From: Oscillospiraceae bacterium
GTDB taxonomy: Bacteria > Bacillota > Clostridia > Oscillospirales > Acutalibacteraceae
Assembly: GCA_031282735.1 (NCBI GenBank)
Contig: JAITDE010000069.1
Coordinates: 1 to 64,000 of the forward strand
Direction: 5' to 3'
Length of the DNA stretch: 64,000 bases
The position numbers and the translations under genes were made by a program. Shown piece after piece: positions 45,110 to 54,580 of this stretch. The first letter of the stretch is position 1. The number at the start of each line of letters is the position of its first letter. The notes under the pieces are model-generated. The model was not told where the DNA came from, ran no database searches, and saw only the letters and a program-made list of their open reading frames with translations.

Positions 45110-45170
45110 ACAGCGCGAAGCGGCTAAAGTCTTTTTGCTTACTTTTTCTTCAGAAAAAGGAAGTCAGAAG
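45110..45170. repeat. Dispersed palindromic repeat (ACAGCGCGAAGCGGCTAAAGTCTTTTTGCTTACTTTTTCTTCAGAAAAAG)
   Basis: About 50 bp near identical to 48751-48800 and, inverted, to 62171-62224; abuts the ABC transporter stop codon. Confidence 0.9.
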
Positions 45171-47443
45171 TTCTCTTCGGCTCGTTTGGCTTCCGCTTCT
45201 TCCGCCATGGATTGGATTTGCACCAATTTATAGTATTTCCCTTTTTTTGCCATCAGCTCTTGCGGTGAACCGAATTCAATGATCTCCCCTTTGTCGACCA
45301 CGACAATTTTGTTCGCTTTGCGTAGCGTCGAAAGTCGGTGGGCGATCATCAGCGTGGTGCGCCCGCGAATGAGGCGTTCAATCGCCGCTTGGATGAGGTG
45401 TTCGGTTTCGCTGTCCACGGCGGCGGTGGCTTCGTCAAAAATAAGGATGCTGGGGTTTTTGAGCACCGCGCGCGCAATGGAAATACGTTGCTTTTCGCCG
45501 CCCGAAAGACCCACGCCGCGTTCCCCCAGCATCGTATCGTAGGCATCGGGGAGACGGGCGATAAATCCGTGCGCGTTCGCGACTTCGGCGGCGTAGAGAA
45601 CCTCCTCCACGTGCGGCTCGCCCGCACCGTAAGCGATGTTGCGGAAAATCGAATCCTTAAACATCAGCGGTTCTTGTTGCACATAGCCGATTTGACTGCG
45701 GTAGTATTCCATATCAACATCGCGCAAATTCACGCCGTCGATGTAAATTTCGCCGTCGTAGTCGTCATAATAACGCATAATGAGGTTGATCAGCGTCGAT
45801 TTGCCCGAACCGGTCGTGCCGACGATGCCCACCGTGTCGCCCGGCTCAATGACCAAGTTGATGTTGGTGAGCACCTTTTTGGAGCGATCGAACGAAAAGT
45901 TGACGTTGCGGAACTCAACGCGCCCGCGAACACGTTCCAATTGCGAACCTTTGCCGAAATCCCGTTCCGGCTCGGCATCGAGGATGTCAAGGATTTTTTC
46001 GACGGAGGCCAAGGTGTTTTGATAGCTATCGCTGAGCGTCGCAAAGAAGTTGACAGGATCGTAAAACTTGCTTGCGTATGTGATGAACGTCACCAACGTG
46101 CCGATCGTGAGTGCGCCCGTTGTGCCGTTGATGACTTGCGAACCGCCGACACCCCAAACAATGAGCGAACCGCAAGTGATCAAAAAGGTCATTACGTTTG
46201 GAAAAACAGCCGAAATTTTTGCCGCCGCGCGATCCTCTTTATACCATTCATCCAAAAAGCGCGCAAATTTTTTGATTGCGCTGTTTTCGTTCGTGAATGC
46301 TTTGATGACGCGTACGCCCGGGATTGTGTCGGCCAGCAGGCTGTAGATTGCCGATCCGCGCCGCCAGATACGGCGATATTTCGGCGCGATCTTTTTTCCC
46401 ATCAGCCGCCCGCCGTAGACGACCAGCGGCACGGGCGCAAGGCTGAAGAGCGAAAGCTTCCAGTCCATGGCGAACATGATGATGATCAACCCGACCATTA
46501 AAAACGCGCGGACGACGGCATCCTGGCTCATGCGCAAAATGAACTGCTGGAGCACATTTGCATCGCCATTCACGCGGTTAATGACCGATCCCGTGGACGT
46601 TTTATCAAAAAAGCTCATGGGCAAAAACTGCGCCTTGGCATAGATATCTTTTTTGAGGTCGACAATGATACGGTTGCCCGCAATGCGCAGGTAATACGCG
46701 CGGAACGCTCCCAACGTATACTGAACCACATAAACGGCAAGCAAAAACAAAATCACTTTTGCCAAATTGCTCAAATCGCCGCTCGGCAAAACGGAATCAA
46801 CCATTTTGCCCGTGACGTAGGCGGGAACCAAATCCAGCGCGGTTGTTGCAACCGAGAGCAACATGCAAAGCAACAGCGCGGGCATGCGCGGTTTGAAGTA
46901 AGGCCAAAATTTGCCGAAAACCTGTTTTTTGCCCGTGCAATTGAGGCAGGGGCTGTCGATGGAACGCAATTTACGCCCGCATTTGGGGCAAAAGGCGCGA
47001 AGGCGCTCAAAACTGCCGCGCACGCCCTCCGTCATGTCGGGCGTGTAGCCACTTTTGTTGACGGCGTTCACAAACTCACCGGCAGCTTCGGCGACCTCGG
47101 CCACGGCGTATGTAAAGCGCAACAGTGTCCGCTTTTTCCCGTTTGGATCAATCACCTGAAAGATGGCGTTGCCGTAAAACCGACGCACCTTTACGGATGA
47201 AAAATCGGCGTAGACGAACTCTTCAGGCTCCGCCATTTTCGCGGAATCGTAGGCAACCAGGGAATGCGGATAAAACAAAAGCGCACTTTCGCCATAGCGC
47301 CCCTGCAATGTGAGATCGCCGACGACCGCAAAGCACGACTGATCGGCGCGGTTATCTTTGTAACACTGCAACGCGTGCGGCAGTTGGCGGTTGCTCAAAA
47401 ATTTGGTTGCGCTCTGCTGTGCCTCAGCATCTAAAACTTCCAT
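45164..47443 (-). CDS. ABC exporter (fused permease-ATPase) with extra N-terminal domain and zinc-ribbon-like motif
   Basis: Walker A GTTGSGKSTL, signature LSGGEKQRISIARA, VDSETEHLIQAAI; N-terminal ~170 aa ending CPKCGRKLRSIDSPCLNC. Confidence 0.93.
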   Translation of the reverse strand: MEVLDAEAQQSATKFLSNRQLPHALQCYKDNRADQSCFAVVGDLTLQGRYGESALLFYPHSLVAYDSAKMAEPEEFVYADFSSVKVRRFYGNAIFQVIDPNGKKRTLLRFTYAVAEVAEAAGEFVNAVNKSGYTPDMTEGVRGSFERLRAFCPKCGRKLRSIDSPCLNCTGKKQVFGKFWPYFKPRMPALLLCMLLSVATTALDLVPAYVTGKMVDSVLPSGDLSNLAKVILFLLAVYVVQYTLGAFRAYYLRIAGNRIIVDLKKDIYAKAQFLPMSFFDKTSTGSVINRVNGDANVLQQFILRMSQDAVVRAFLMVGLIIIMFAMDWKLSLFSLAPVPLVVYGGRLMGKKIAPKYRRIWRRGSAIYSLLADTIPGVRVIKAFTNENSAIKKFARFLDEWYKEDRAAAKISAVFPNVMTFLITCGSLIVWGVGGSQVINGTTGALTIGTLVTFITYASKFYDPVNFFATLSDSYQNTLASVEKILDILDAEPERDFGKGSQLERVRGRVEFRNVNFSFDRSKKVLTNINLVIEPGDTVGIVGTTGSGKSTLINLIMRYYDDYDGEIYIDGVNLRDVDMEYYRSQIGYVQQEPLMFKDSIFRNIAYGAGEPHVEEVLYAAEVANAHGFIARLPDAYDTMLGERGVGLSGGEKQRISIARAVLKNPSILIFDEATAAVDSETEHLIQAAIERLIRGRTTLMIAHRLSTLRKANKIVVVDKGEIIEFGSPQELMAKKGKYYKLVQIQSMAEEAEAKRAEENF

Positions 47444-47483
47444 ACAAATACCCTCCCGTTTGCAACGGCAATCGAACGCATTT

Positions 47484-47512
47484 ACTATACACACTTTTGG
47501 CAAAAAAGTCAA
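47484..47512 (-). promoter_or_regulatory. Promoter TTGACT-17-TATAGT (minus strand)
   Basis: Upstream of the ABC exporter; same hexamers as the 5S promoter. Confidence 0.75.
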
Positions 47513-47993: not shown

Positions 47994-48593
47994 ATGAGCA
48001 ACAACAATCTTTTTTCTTGCCGCAAACGCCAGTGTTCTGTAAAAGTCGCATTCCCTGTTATCACTTCGGATGGCTGTTCAGTGGCAGGCGCCGTATTCAA
48101 AATCGCCTGTTCCTGCGGTAAATTCAGCAACGCAATTTCGGATTGCAACGGCTGTGTCACGTTCTGTGGGTTGGCTCCGGGGCATTACACAATCACGCAG
48201 GTCGCCGCGCCCTATGGTTATGCGGCCGACGACAAATCGCACACCGTTATGGTGAATTGCAACGGCTGTGTCAAAATTGACGACTTGCCCGTCCGCTGTT
48301 TTCAGGCTGTTAACGACAAAGCGGAGGCACCGCCCGCGCCGCAAAGCGATCAGCCGGATATCAATCCCATTGCCGCCGATGCGGTCACAATCACCGGCAC
48401 GGGCGAACCCGGGAGCGCGATTACCGTGATTTTCCCAAACGGATGCAAGGTATGCACCATTGTGCGCCGCGATGCCGCGTGGTCTGCGGATGTTCCCGAC
48501 GGTATCACGCTCAAGACGGGGGACGAAGTGACGGTTATCCAAGAGACACCGTGCAAACTGCCCAGCAAACCCAAAGACGAGTTCGTTGTTTAA
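47994..48593 (+). CDS. Cys-rich SpaA/prealbumin-like plus Ig-like (Big) domain protein, no evident signal peptide
   Basis: SVAGAVFKIACSCGKFSNAISDCNGCVTFCGLAPGHYTITQVAAPYGYAADDKSHTVMVNCNGCVKI matches the SpaA-domain pattern; GTGEPGSAITVIFPNGCKVCTIVRRDAAWSADVPDG resembles a Big domain; TTTGGAGGT Shine-Dalgarno. Confidence 0.82.
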   Translation: MSNNNLFSCRKRQCSVKVAFPVITSDGCSVAGAVFKIACSCGKFSNAISDCNGCVTFCGLAPGHYTITQVAAPYGYAADDKSHTVMVNCNGCVKIDDLPVRCFQAVNDKAEAPPAPQSDQPDINPIAADAVTITGTGEPGSAITVIFPNGCKVCTIVRRDAAWSADVPDGITLKTGDEVTVIQETPCKLPSKPKDEFVV

Positions 48594-49754: not shown

Positions 49755-50396
49755 TTAATGACATTCGCAAAGCAAAACCGCGTTGGCAAGGATGAAATCT
49801 TTCGCAGGTTGAAGCAATATGTCACGTTTTTGATTGCTGTCAATCAATTGTGCAAACGCTTCGTCCCATTGGGCAATGGCGGTCTTGTCGAGCGAAACGT
49901 CGCTATCCTCATCAAACGCTTCGTATGCCGCCGCAAAAAGCCCCGCGAACGCGCCGCCAACAAGTTGGTTCACGGCGTACAAAGCCCACGGTGTGAGCGG
50001 CTTTCCGTTTGCCCGAAAAAAATGGCTGAGCGACTTTTGCGTGTCAGCCATCACATAACCCAATGCGTAAAGCATCTTTTTTTCATCCGGCAACGATTCA
50101 AACGCGGCGTTAAGGTTCGTTTGAGACTCCAGCCAAAGCTGGATGCTGCAACATACGCCCTCCGCCAACCGTGCGGGCGGCGTGTCGATCAACGTCTGTT
50201 GGGTGAGGACGGCAAAATCATCACGCAGTTTTTTTTCGTGCTCCAACTTTGCGATCAACTCTTGCTTTTTTTGCCCGCGCCTCTTTGCGCGTTTGAGCGC
50301 CTTGAACCAGGCGAACACGCACAGCGCAAACACGACCGCCAGCAAAATCACCAACCACGGATACGCGTCCGCGGCTTTCATGATTTCATCAACCAT
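49755..50396 (-). CDS. Hypothetical membrane-anchored protein (213 aa)
   Basis: N-terminal TM (AYPWLVILLAVVFALCVFAWF); overlaps rsmI stop. Confidence 0.65.
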   Translation of the reverse strand: MVDEIMKAADAYPWLVILLAVVFALCVFAWFKALKRAKRRGQKKQELIAKLEHEKKLRDDFAVLTQQTLIDTPPARLAEGVCCSIQLWLESQTNLNAAFESLPDEKKMLYALGYVMADTQKSLSHFFRANGKPLTPWALYAVNQLVGGAFAGLFAAAYEAFDEDSDVSLDKTAIAQWDEAFAQLIDSNQKRDILLQPAKDFILANAVLLCECH

Positions 50397-51234
50397 TCCG
50401 TCCCTCTTCCTCCCTCAGCATCGCGGTATAAACCGCGTTTTTTTTACACCCCGTTTGCTTTGCGATTGCATGCGCGGCCTCGGTGCGCGCGCAGTTGTTC
50501 GCTTTTGCGTATGCCCGGGCCAAAGCGGCGGCTTCCTCCAAAGAGATCGTTGTTTTAGGCTGTTTGTTTGCGCCGCCCAGCACAAGAACAATCTCGCCTT
50601 TGAATGTGTGTGCGGCAAAATCGCGCGCGGCGGCAGTGCAGGTTGTTTGAATGACCTCTTCATGGATTTTTGTCAGTTCACGCACGATTGCCAGAGGGCG
50701 ATCGCCGAAACAACGCGCAAAGTCGCGCAGTGTTTGCGGCATCTTATGCGGAGCTTCATAAAAAAGCATGGTGCGTGTTTCGCCTTTGAGCGATTCCAAA
50801 TGCGCTTCGCGGCTGTTTTTTGCCACGGATAAAAAGCCCTCGAACGTGAATCGTCCCGACGGCATCCCCGAAAGCGCCAACGCCGTCGCGAACGCGACAG
50901 GACCCGGCACACTTTCCACGGCAACGCCAGACGCGCGGCATGCGCGAACCAGTTCTTCCCCTGGATCGGAGATACTCGGCATGCCGGCGTCTGTGACCAA
51001 AGCGACGTTTTCGCCCGCCTGTATACGCGCAAGTATGGCCTCGCCGCTTGTTTTGTGATTGTGCGCGTGATAGCTGATCATGGGCGTTTTGATATTGAAC
51101 GCATGCAACAATTTCGCGGTTACGCGCGTATCCTCCGCGGCGATGAGGTCGGTCGATGCAAGCACTTCGGCGGCGCGGGGCGAAAAATCGCCCAAATTGC
51201 CGATGGGTGTGCCTACAAGGAACAATTTCCCCAT
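50389..51234 (-). CDS. rsmI: 16S rRNA (cytidine(1402)-2'-O)-methyltransferase
   Basis: LFLVGTPIGNLGDFSPRAAEVL; DLIAAEDTRVTAKLL; ALVTDAGMPSISDPGEELV; FYEAPHKMPQTL; start reset to MGKLFLVG. Confidence 0.93.
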   Translation of the reverse strand: MGKLFLVGTPIGNLGDFSPRAAEVLASTDLIAAEDTRVTAKLLHAFNIKTPMISYHAHNHKTSGEAILARIQAGENVALVTDAGMPSISDPGEELVRACRASGVAVESVPGPVAFATALALSGMPSGRFTFEGFLSVAKNSREAHLESLKGETRTMLFYEAPHKMPQTLRDFARCFGDRPLAIVRELTKIHEEVIQTTCTAAARDFAAHTFKGEIVLVLGGANKQPKTTISLEEAAALARAYAKANNCARTEAAHAIAKQTGCKKNAVYTAMLREEEGRNG

Positions 51235-51313: not shown

Positions 51314-53482
51314 TCAGTTCTCGATAATCCGTTCCACGACCAACCTGCGGAAATCTTTGGAAAGCGTGGAGAAATAGACCGAAAAGCCTGTGATACGCAC
51401 GACCAAATCGGGATATTTTTCGGGATGTTCGTAGGCGTCAAGGAGTTTATCTTTGTCGATGATGTTGATGTTGACGAGCGATCCGCCCAAATCGTTGCAA
51501 TAGGTGAGCAACCATGACATAATGTTGTCGATGCCGTCGTCGCCCTTGGCAAGACCGGGATCAATTTCGAGCTGAATTGGTGCGGTGTTGCCCCAGCGCG
51601 GTTGGACGGCCGCAACGGCGATGCCCATGGCAGTCAGTGCGCCTGATTCGCGGAAACCGGGTTCGGGATTTGCGCCGTGGGTTACAGGAGCTTGCGCCTT
51701 GCGCCCGTTGGGCGTTGCAATCACGGCCTGCCCCATGCCGATGGTGTTTGCCCACGAGAACAAACCGGGGATCATGTTGAATCCTTTCGGCGAATTGCTC
51801 TTTTTGGTGTGATAGGTCAGACGGCGCACAATTTCAACGGCGTATTCATCCGCGCGCGTGCCGCCAAAACCATAGCGCGGCGTGGATTTCATATAGAGCC
51901 GCATGTCTTCGTGATCCGCCCAATCGGAGGCGATCACATCAAAGAGTTCCTGCCAATTCATCATTTGCTCATCGTCAATGGCGCGTTCAAGCGACGCGAA
52001 CGAATCCGCAACCGTGCCGAGGGCGACAAAATCAATGCAGAAATTGTAGTTGTCGACACCGCCGTTTGAAACGTCCAAACCGCGTTCGATCGGACCATGG
52101 CACATGAAGTTCAACGCCATTTCGGGGCGCATAAAGTGGTACATATCATATTGAAAGTCGACGGTTTTTTTGATTGTGTCGACCGCGATATCAAGATGCT
52201 TATCGAACAATTGCCACAGCAATTCGACCGTTGGATGTTCTGCTTCCGCCAACTCAAACCAAGCGATTTCAAAAATTTTTGCCATGTTGATTTTGACCAC
52301 GTCGTTGAGCGTGTATTCCGTGCCGGGCAAGGCGCACCAGTTGCAGCCGACTTTGTAGCGTTGGCGGGCGACTTCGGCGGTGTAGCCGTTTTTCATGAAG
52401 CCCTCCACCATTACCTTGTCGCCGAGGTAGGCGGGATTGCCACACTTGTCCTCAAACATATATTCCACGCTCTTGCGCAAAAAGGCGCGATCAATCCCCT
52501 CATGCACGCGCAGGCAGACGGCGGTCGGGATTTTGAGCCAGTGCGTCGCTTCCAGCGCAAGCCAAGAGAGCCTGTTTGTGCGGTCGGTGCCGTCGGGCCA
52601 AACGCCGCCGATTTCAAAATACTGCGTATCTTTCAGCAACAGGCAAGCCAAATGGTATGTCGCCTCGTCGTCCGTCAAAACACCGGCGGCGATGTCGCGT
52701 TCATAATATTTTGTCAGCAACGCTTCGAGGCATCCGCCCGCGCCGGAGCCGTTGAAAATGCTTGATTGCATCAAAAACCATGTCAGCCATTGGCAGGCTT
52801 CAAGGAATGTTTCGGGTTTTTCCTCCACAAGGCGGAAGTTCATGTCGGCCATGCGCTCCAAATTTGCCTTTAAATCGGGATCTTCCTGCGTTTTTGCGGC
52901 CTCGGCGGCGGCTTCGGCGTTGTGCCTGATCCACGTTTGAATGCCGAGAACGACATCCTCTTCGCCCCGCAAAAATTCCAGTTTTTCGGGATCGTCCTTG
53001 TGGACATCCTGATAGTAACGGATCTTTTCCAAAATACCGCGCCAGCCGACATCAAGCCCCAACGGACCGACATCGTGGTGGAAGTGGTGCGATCCGCCGA
53101 GACCCGACACCAAATTGTACTTTTGGTGCAGTTCGCGCAACGCTTGGAGTTCAGGCGGATTGAATTCGGGTTCGGGACGCCAGCCGCCCCAACTGTGCCA
53201 CTCCAATTTGTCCATATATGCGCCCGCAAGGGAGCAGTAGGGATCAATATAGGAGGGGTGCGCGTCGAGGATCCGGCGCATGTTGTGCCCCCATGCCTTT
53301 GCCCCAAACACGCCGTTCGGATGATTCCATTCCAGTTCAAACGTCCAGCCGTCGGGGGAGACGACCCAACCCTTGTCGTCAGTGTCAAAAAAGCCGGGAC
53401 GCGTGTGCGTTGCAAGTTTCAGCTTGGTCATTTCTTCTTTTGCCTTGCGCAGAACATCAACCTTTTCACGGTACGTTAACAT
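51314..53482 (-). CDS. Glycyl radical enzyme (PFL-like family), substrate unknown
   Basis: C-terminal radical motif VVRITGFSVYFSTLSKDFRRLVVERI; candidate thiyl loop RYKVGCNWCALPGTEY; 722 aa. Confidence 0.9.
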   Translation of the reverse strand: MLTYREKVDVLRKAKEEMTKLKLATHTRPGFFDTDDKGWVVSPDGWTFELEWNHPNGVFGAKAWGHNMRRILDAHPSYIDPYCSLAGAYMDKLEWHSWGGWRPEPEFNPPELQALRELHQKYNLVSGLGGSHHFHHDVGPLGLDVGWRGILEKIRYYQDVHKDDPEKLEFLRGEEDVVLGIQTWIRHNAEAAAEAAKTQEDPDLKANLERMADMNFRLVEEKPETFLEACQWLTWFLMQSSIFNGSGAGGCLEALLTKYYERDIAAGVLTDDEATYHLACLLLKDTQYFEIGGVWPDGTDRTNRLSWLALEATHWLKIPTAVCLRVHEGIDRAFLRKSVEYMFEDKCGNPAYLGDKVMVEGFMKNGYTAEVARQRYKVGCNWCALPGTEYTLNDVVKINMAKIFEIAWFELAEAEHPTVELLWQLFDKHLDIAVDTIKKTVDFQYDMYHFMRPEMALNFMCHGPIERGLDVSNGGVDNYNFCIDFVALGTVADSFASLERAIDDEQMMNWQELFDVIASDWADHEDMRLYMKSTPRYGFGGTRADEYAVEIVRRLTYHTKKSNSPKGFNMIPGLFSWANTIGMGQAVIATPNGRKAQAPVTHGANPEPGFRESGALTAMGIAVAAVQPRWGNTAPIQLEIDPGLAKGDDGIDNIMSWLLTYCNDLGGSLVNINIIDKDKLLDAYEHPEKYPDLVVRITGFSVYFSTLSKDFRRLVVERIIEN

Positions 53483-53522: not shown

Positions 53523-53551
53523 ATTATACGATTATTCCGAAAAAAAAGCAA
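53523..53551 (-). promoter_or_regulatory. Promoter TTGCTT-17-TATAAT (minus strand) for glycyl radical enzyme gene
   Basis: AAGCAA at 53546-53551 and ATTATA at 53523-53528 on the + strand. Confidence 0.7.
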
Positions 53552-53731: not shown

Positions 53732-54580
53732 ATGCCGCGTGAATTCACACCTGCCGCGAAAGCGCGGCGCAGTTTGCAAACCACTTATGTTAAGCGCATA
53801 TGGAATCCGTTTGTCGCCGCCGCGAAGCAGTATCGGCTTATTGAGGCGGGCGATAGAATTGCCGTTTGCGTTTCGGGCGGCAAAGATTCTTTTTTGCTTG
53901 CCATGCTTATGGCGATGCTCCATGAACATTCCGATGTGCCGTTCGAGCTTGTTTTGCTGAGCATGAATCCCGGCTACAATGATGAAAACGCCCGTCGCGT
54001 GCACGATAACGCCGCGTTGCTGGGTTTGGATGTTGTTTTTTTTGATGCCGACATCTTCGACACCGTCGCCAAAATGGATGGTTCGCCCTGCTATGTGTGT
54101 GCCCGCATGCGCCGCGGACATTTATACAAGGAAGCGCAAGCGCGGGGATGCAACAAAATTGCCCTTGGTCATCATTTCAACGATGTGATCGAAACCACAT
54201 TGATGAGCATGTTATACGGTGCGCAAATCCAGTCCATGCCTCCAAAGCTCAAAAGCAGAAACTATGAGGGCATGCAGCTGATCCGTCCGCTCTATCATGT
54301 GCGGGAGGACGACATCATCGCTTGGAAAAACCACAACCAACTCCAATTTATCCAATGTGCCTGCCGGTTCACGGAGCACTGCACCGCGTGCACGCCCGAC
54401 GACGGCGGCTCAAAACGCCAGGAGATGAAACGCCTGATTCGGGAACTACGCAAAACCCACCCCGACGTTGAAAAATGCATTTTCCAAAGCACGCGCAACG
54501 TGCGGCTTGATACCATGATCGCCTACACCCACCACGGACAGGAACATAGCTTTTTGGAAGATTTTTCGCCGCCGGAATAA
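53732..54580 (+). CDS. TtcA-like tRNA 2-thiolation family ATPase (PP-loop)
   Basis: IAVCVSGGKDSFLLAML; CYVCARMRRGHLYKEAQARGCNKIALGHHFNDVIETTLM. Confidence 0.87.
   Translation: MPREFTPAAKARRSLQTTYVKRIWNPFVAAAKQYRLIEAGDRIAVCVSGGKDSFLLAMLMAMLHEHSDVPFELVLLSMNPGYNDENARRVHDNAALLGLDVVFFDADIFDTVAKMDGSPCYVCARMRRGHLYKEAQARGCNKIALGHHFNDVIETTLMSMLYGAQIQSMPPKLKSRNYEGMQLIRPLYHVREDDIIAWKNHNQLQFIQCACRFTEHCTACTPDDGGSKRQEMKRLIRELRKTHPDVEKCIFQSTRNVRLDTMIAYTHHGQEHSFLEDFSPPE

Follow-up and report, generated by a model that had tools for sequence, protein, structure and literature searches.

The known eliminases and decarboxylases among the glycyl radical enzymes (GREs) depend on a Glu located two residues from the thiyl radical Cys. 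This loop Glu has been stated to be important for isethionate lyase (PMC6453916) and for HPAD and IAD, both of which retain Glu in their Cys-Glu dyad (PMC6181972). Since YbiW and PflD of E. coli, the characterised sugar GREs closest to the protein described here, open 1,5-anhydrohexitol 6-phosphates (PMC12441222), GREs are also able to act on sugar rings. GRE groups without names have been pointed out before (PMC6258724, PMC11574389), with carbohydrates or peptides suggested as substrates for some (PMC6258724). The GRE described here is encoded in the window, the whole 64,000-nucleotide stretch of DNA that was analysed. It is alike in predicted fold (TM 0.81) and in its Cys and Gly radical sites to B12-independent glycerol dehydratase (1r8w/1r9d) and the GRE 1,2-propanediol dehydratases, although it is only ~22% identical to them. 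Choline TMA-lyase CutC likewise has the fold and radical residues in common with the window GRE, but carries Cys489-x-Glu491, has other gene neighbours and is also ~22% identical. PflD/YbiW (8id0, 8id7) have the common GRE fold and, judging by gene context, a sugar-derived substrate class in common with it; however, PflD keeps Cys-x-Glu and their substrate is phosphorylated. Pyruvate formate-lyase (PFL) belongs to the same superfamily and has a glycyl radical domain, but it has an adjacent Cys-Cys (ACCKQM in L003, from the window genome) and a distant position in the tree.

The GCxW family and its predicted fold

The gene and the residues discussed below are as follows.

51314..53482, minus strand: GRE of the GCxW family (P0001), 722 aa, from ORF, Pfam, AlphaFold and Foldseek
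53084..53086, minus strand: His133, aligned to glycerol dehydratase His164 (1r8w), 74/74 members
52334..52348, minus strand: thiyl radical loop GCNWC, from the sequence (Cys380 52343-52345, Trp382 52337-52339, Cys383 52334-52336)
52316..52318, minus strand: Glu389, acid at +9 from Cys380, aligned to glycerol dehydratase Thr442, 74/74 and 28/28 further members, candidate relocated acid/base
52301..52303, minus strand: Asp394, aligned to glycerol dehydratase Asp447 (1r8w), 74/74
51677..51679, minus strand: His602, 71/74 in the family, mostly non-His in comparator GREs, putative role
51386..51391, minus strand: glycyl radical site Thr698-Gly699 in RITGF (family RVTG[FY]), 74/74

The ORF is complete, running from an ATG at 53482 to a stop at 51314, and the protein matches the Pfam families PFL-like (270 bits) and Gly_radical (57.6 bits, cut-off 22.2), both over their cut-offs, confirming the claim of the earlier note that this is a genuine GRE. 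As in other members of the PFL-like superfamily, we find a glycyl motif with its Gly, a predicted barrel fold with a Cys loop and an orthologue of a cognate activase. None of the NCBIfam GRE models reaches its cut-off on this protein, the best being TIGR01774 for the broad PFL2-3 subfamily (228 versus 678 bits). Identity to other GREs is about 20-26%, compared with 34-91% among GCxW members in the same alignment, and the GCxW proteins form a separate clade; the protein thus lies outside every characterised subfamily, as had been proposed, and the further suggestion of a substrate outside the standard set is likely to be correct.

The AlphaFold model (mean pLDDT 94.4, pTM 0.94) predicts a standard GRE fold, closest to the diol dehydratases and CutC. 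The top Foldseek match was 1r8w (E 1.2e-37, TM 0.81), followed by CutC, propanediol dehydratases, hydroxyproline dehydratases and PflD/YbiW, with decarboxylases and the benzylsuccinate and alkylsuccinate synthases at the bottom of the list. CutC E491 mutants are present among the matched PDB entries.

Congeneric and same-order relatives were aligned first and then used to scan genome contigs, yielding 253 confirmed relatives, of which 80 were kept. These belong to Bacillota, Chloroflexota, Planctomycetes, Bathyarchaeota, Armatimonadota, Verrucomicrobiota, Kiritimatiellota, Lentisphaerota, Bacteroidota, Ignavibacteriota, Acidobacteria and other phyla. One member, Victivallis vadensis (L093), is in culture. 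In an alignment of 74 rows, query included, which spans over ten phyla, we found that His133, Cys380, Trp382, Pro386, Gly387, Glu389, Asp394, Asn632, Thr698 and Gly699 are invariant, and that position 381 is occupied by His, Asn or Gln. A later profile search covering 391 genomes from the class matched 29, from which 28 family members were fetched; His133, Cys380, Trp382, Glu389 and Asp394 are kept in 28 of these 28 independently found proteins. L238, a more remote relative (404 bits), likewise has GCQW and PGKEY. The window GRE carries the signature of the family, GC[HNQ]Wxx[ILV]PGxE[YF] together with R[VI]TG[FY], and falls within its single clade. Judged on sequence, the GCxW family is real, conserved and apart from all the characterised GRE subfamilies compared here, and Trp in place of Glu is a trait of the family as a whole rather than a peculiarity of the window protein. 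We found no published description of such a family (Trp-loop, sugar-linked or termite GREs) in the literature searched, whose coverage leaves out most subscription journals.

We built a tree of 81 rows in which GCxW proteins were set against further GREs of the order, PFL and a CutC-like protein among them. The GCxW proteins group in one clade with support 100 and a long stem (0.83); its sister, L165, also has a Trp loop. One protein marked as 'other' in the tree run, L183, carries GCNW, and the second apparent change of label in the tree is therefore a labelling artefact. Another GRE (L184, 4168-6333, plus strand) has PCNW instead of GCxE, together with RITGYS, and sits on a long branch outside the clade; given this protein, Trp at loop +2 may have arisen more than once. 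The GRE frames of L225, L230 and L231 each have one in-frame stop inside the profile match, probably from the match overrunning the end of the ORF.

The thiyl loop and the readings it bears on

The codons of GCNWC lie exactly at 52334-52348, as first reported from the sequence, and the C-terminal glycyl motif is present as VRITGFSVYF. A phmmer alignment to glycerol dehydratase 1r8w pairs query residues 380-394 with 433-447 without gaps, matching Cys380 to Cys433, Trp382 to Glu435, Glu389 to Thr442 and Asp394 to Asp447; His133 pairs with His164. Trp therefore does occupy the usual place of Glu, as the earlier note had it. We take His164, Glu435 and Asp447 to be active-site residues of glycerol dehydratase: the equivalents of the first and third are kept in the window GRE, whereas Glu435 is replaced by Trp, Thr442 by an invariant Glu, and the radical Gly is preceded by Thr, a position that is mostly Ala, Ser or Gly in comparator GREs. 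The invariant Glu at loop +9 (GCxWxxxPGxEY) is a conserved partner of Trp382 that had escaped the earlier note.

The loop departs from each known type. The Cys-x-Glu dyad of the GRE eliminases (diol dehydratase, CutC, HypD and IslA type) is absent, with Trp382 in 74/74 members; Trp likewise stands at +2 in place of Glu1 of the Cys-Glu1 dyad of the HPAD/IAD decarboxylases; and GCNWC compares with GCVET in PflD 8id0, which has the Cys-x-Glu loop of the YbiW/PflD GREs. The adjacent Cys-Cys of PFL is also lacking, since the second Cys of GCNWC stands at +3 from the first and is unconserved. That second Cys had been listed as a feature of the loop; it is present (Cys383), but it is lineage-specific rather than part of the motif, being Cys in only 12 of 74 members, and a PFL-like pair was dropped on these grounds. 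There is accordingly very little to recommend a PFL-like radical C-C lyase or acyltransferase acting on a 2-keto-3-deoxy sugar acid: genes of the 2-keto-3-deoxy pathway do lie near some members and some relatives have the +3 Cys, but the adjacent pair is missing and the PFL clade is distant in the tree.

Trp at +2 would be expected to raise the hydrophobicity of the pocket, and could shape an aromatic or hydrophobic site in a decarboxylase or a fumarate-adding enzyme. We regard this as very improbable, since HPAD and IAD retain their Glu (PMC6181972), the neighbours of the family are carbohydrate genes, and structures of decarboxylases and of Bss/Mas come far down the Foldseek list. Hydrocarbon activation of the Bss/Ass type was rejected.

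Loss of the eliminase Glu could instead signal a different reaction. A radical enzyme that epimerises or isomerises sugars, with the thiyl taking a hydrogen that is returned on the opposite face, would have no need of a Glu for hydroxyl deprotonation, and the sugar gene context would suit it; however, the retained His133 and Asp394 resemble those of eliminases, and no GRE is known to work in this way. We consider this reading improbable.

Activase and gene context in relatives

The earlier note reported that no activase gene lies near the GRE. This is true of the window locus but misleading for the enzyme. In a congener (G005) the activase gene is directly downstream of the GRE, and its orthologue in the window genome, 65% identical and over the TIGR02494 cut-off, is at G000:C18:5981-6880, flanked by unrelated genes; the search for an activase elsewhere in the genome, proposed as a check, thus succeeded. 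Within the genus, an activase was found in 7/7 genomes with the GRE and 1/7 without it (Fisher p 0.005, 14 genomes); the single exception is 72% complete. This p value is no more than indicative, as genomes of one genus are not independent. In a wide set, 45 of 77 loci encode a protein of the activase cluster close to the GRE, mostly as the gene at -1 or +1, and among the 28 newly found members an activase is within 1.5 kb of the GRE in 23. The unlinked orthologue, the co-occurrence in the genus and the adjacency in most relatives together rule out absence of an activase, and the missing neighbour is a local accident of gene order. The C18 protein is presumably the dedicated partner that generates the radical on Gly699.

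These data also bear on whether the window protein could be a degenerate, inactive paralogue. A Glu that is essential in other eliminases is missing, and the gene stands apart from its activase in the window genome; nevertheless, the Gly, the Cys and the pocket residues are strictly conserved in more than ten phyla and the activase co-occurs, leaving this the faintest of the possibilities. It is from this conservation of residues across phyla that we argue for a function of the GCxW family.

We examined 89 operon neighbours of GCxW GREs by Pfam, held as a plain mixed list that is meaningless as an alignment; as genes at these loci were called as the longest ORFs, some of the listed neighbours are spurious. 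The families represented were Gfo/Idh/MocA (19), binding-protein-dependent permeases of the sugar ABC type (9), URO-D-like proteins (8), solute-binding proteins (4), MFS transporters (4), GH92 (2), DHDPS (2) and the enolase superfamily (2). In L056 the GRE is followed by an FAD oxidoreductase, a KDPG aldolase, a KDG-kinase-like PfkB protein, a metallo-beta-lactamase-type (MBL) hydrolase and an SDR. Neighbours such as these point to sugar or sugar-acid breakdown; they differ by lineage, and the family may hold several substrates. Compared with the glycerol and propanediol dehydratases, no microcompartment genes were seen in the GCxW neighbourhoods read, and a microcompartment link was dropped for that reason.

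Within the genus, the GRE and activase genes of G005 are divergent from genes for an MBL hydrolase, an SDR and a galactonate dehydratase (DgoD, over its equivalog cut-off). Genomes with the GRE have MBL in 7/7, DgoD in 6/7 and SDR in 6/7, with no SDR in the window genome at the threshold used. Of those without the GRE, five lack all four partners (activase, DgoD, SDR and MBL), G011 has DgoD, SDR and MBL without GRE or activase, and the 72% complete G002 has activase, DgoD and MBL. DgoD by itself is not significantly associated with the GRE (6/7 versus 2/7, p 0.10). This pattern suggests a sugar-acid module to which GRE and activase provide an optional entry. DgoD and ManD, enolase-superfamily aldonate dehydratases found next to or near some GCxW members, may belong to the same pathway, but they are unrelated in fold and mechanism and would be partners rather than homologues.

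Two further arrangements were observed. In Ignavibacteria/Bacteroidota loci (L036, L041, L043, L072, L077) a URO-D-like protein of ~365-400 aa is encoded directly 3′ of the GRE, often preceding sugar ABC genes. In Bacteroidales (L073, L074, L075, L066) the GRE is followed by a small cupin-looking protein, without a Pfam match in L073, and then by GH92 and/or a RhaT-like transporter.

The sequence family with its motif, clade and invariant residues, the predicted fold, the activase co-occurrence and the carbohydrate context are established. On our best reading the protein would be an active radical C-O eliminase whose acid/base set is rewired and whose substrate is an unphosphorylated sugar or sugar acid. 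We give this reading an even chance; in it, activity, reaction type, substrate class and acid/base roles are all inferred, the chemistry from homology. The unlinked radical-SAM activase would put the radical on Gly699, from which it would move to Cys380; Cys380 would then abstract a hydrogen from a carbinol carbon of the substrate, and the adjacent C-O bond would be lost by dehydration or an ether-type elimination. In known eliminases the Glu at Cys +2 takes the hydroxyl proton. Here Trp382 occupies that place, and acid/base duty would pass to the retained His133 and Asp394 with the family-specific Glu389 and/or His602, the latter two being candidates for the missing acid/base that may line the pocket. 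In the genus, the product would enter a route of the 2-keto-3-deoxy-aldonate type via a galactonate-dehydratase-type enzyme, an SDR and a metallo-hydrolase.

An alternative within carbohydrate chemistry is that the enzyme opens an anhydrosugar or cyclic ether as YbiW/PflD do, but on a substrate that lacks phosphate and is produced by the Gfo/Idh/MocA reductases encoded nearby. The Foldseek matches include PflD and YbiW in complex with anhydrohexitol phosphates, 8id0 is the best PDB sequence match, their reaction has been described (PMC12441222), and Gfo/Idh/MocA is the most frequent neighbour family. However, PflD has Glu at +2 (GCVET), identity is only ~21%, Gfo/Idh/MocA is a broad family, and PTS genes are absent among the tallied neighbours, making this reading unlikely.

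Returning to the eliminase reading, a large family in which the Glu is replaced throughout and every radical residue is kept means that either the known chemistry is achieved in a new way or the reaction itself is new. More tentatively, GCxW proteins may constitute a rewired GRE class, with the Glu of Cys-x-Glu changed to Trp, an invariant Glu seven residues further on and a family-specific His, with a new radical reaction whose substrates are sugars or sugar acids bearing no phosphate, and with a wide distribution in polysaccharide-degrading anaerobes of several phyla including Bathyarchaeota. Set among genes for sugar uptake and oxidation in gut, soil and sediment anaerobes, these enzymes may catalyse a step of anaerobic carbohydrate breakdown that has so far gone unrecognised.

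Window neighbours and other GREs of the order

The genes and the promoter-like element flanking the GRE in the window are listed here.

50392..51234, minus strand: rsmI, downstream on the same strand, TIGR00096 262 bits (cut-off 168), judged unrelated
53732..54577, plus strand: TtcA-like gene, divergent, NF007972 189.5 bits (below cut-off 272), judged unrelated
53523..53551, minus strand: promoter-like TTGCTT-17-TATAAT, ~40 bases upstream of the start codon, exact match, weak -35

Both neighbours are as the earlier note had named them, RsmI over its cut-off and the divergent gene TtcA-like below that of its model. The same note gave the GRE its own promoter; the element occurs once, at 53551-53523 on the minus strand, and in 0 of 100 shuffles, but its -35 box TTGCTT agrees with the consensus at 3 of 6 bases and was unlisted by a consensus scan, and we therefore describe it as promoter-like only. 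The further neighbours are rlmD, ychF and metK, and none of these five genes in the window gives a functional hint. Elsewhere in the window we observed a Cys-rich ORF with a seeming prealbumin/SpaA-like surface domain (47994-48593, plus strand) and an ABC exporter (45167-47512, minus strand) whose best NCBIfam match is a cyanophycin-associated ABC transporter (542.6 bits, below the 880 cut-off).

The window genome encodes three further GREs (G000:C71, L002 and L003; G000:C106, L004): one with a GCSEC loop adjoining an aminotransferase-like gene, a PFL, and a divergent GCQEP/RIHGTF protein with its own adjacent activase. Unusual loops, including GCWEIQIPG, GCIENFLQG and GCGEYVLEHC, occur in GREs of the order. 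Two genomes of the same order, G051 and G057 (L149-L159 and L179-L182), have 11 and 8 PFL-like GRE matches, many of them ~700-760 aa and with unusual loops, a large pool of uncharacterised short GREs.
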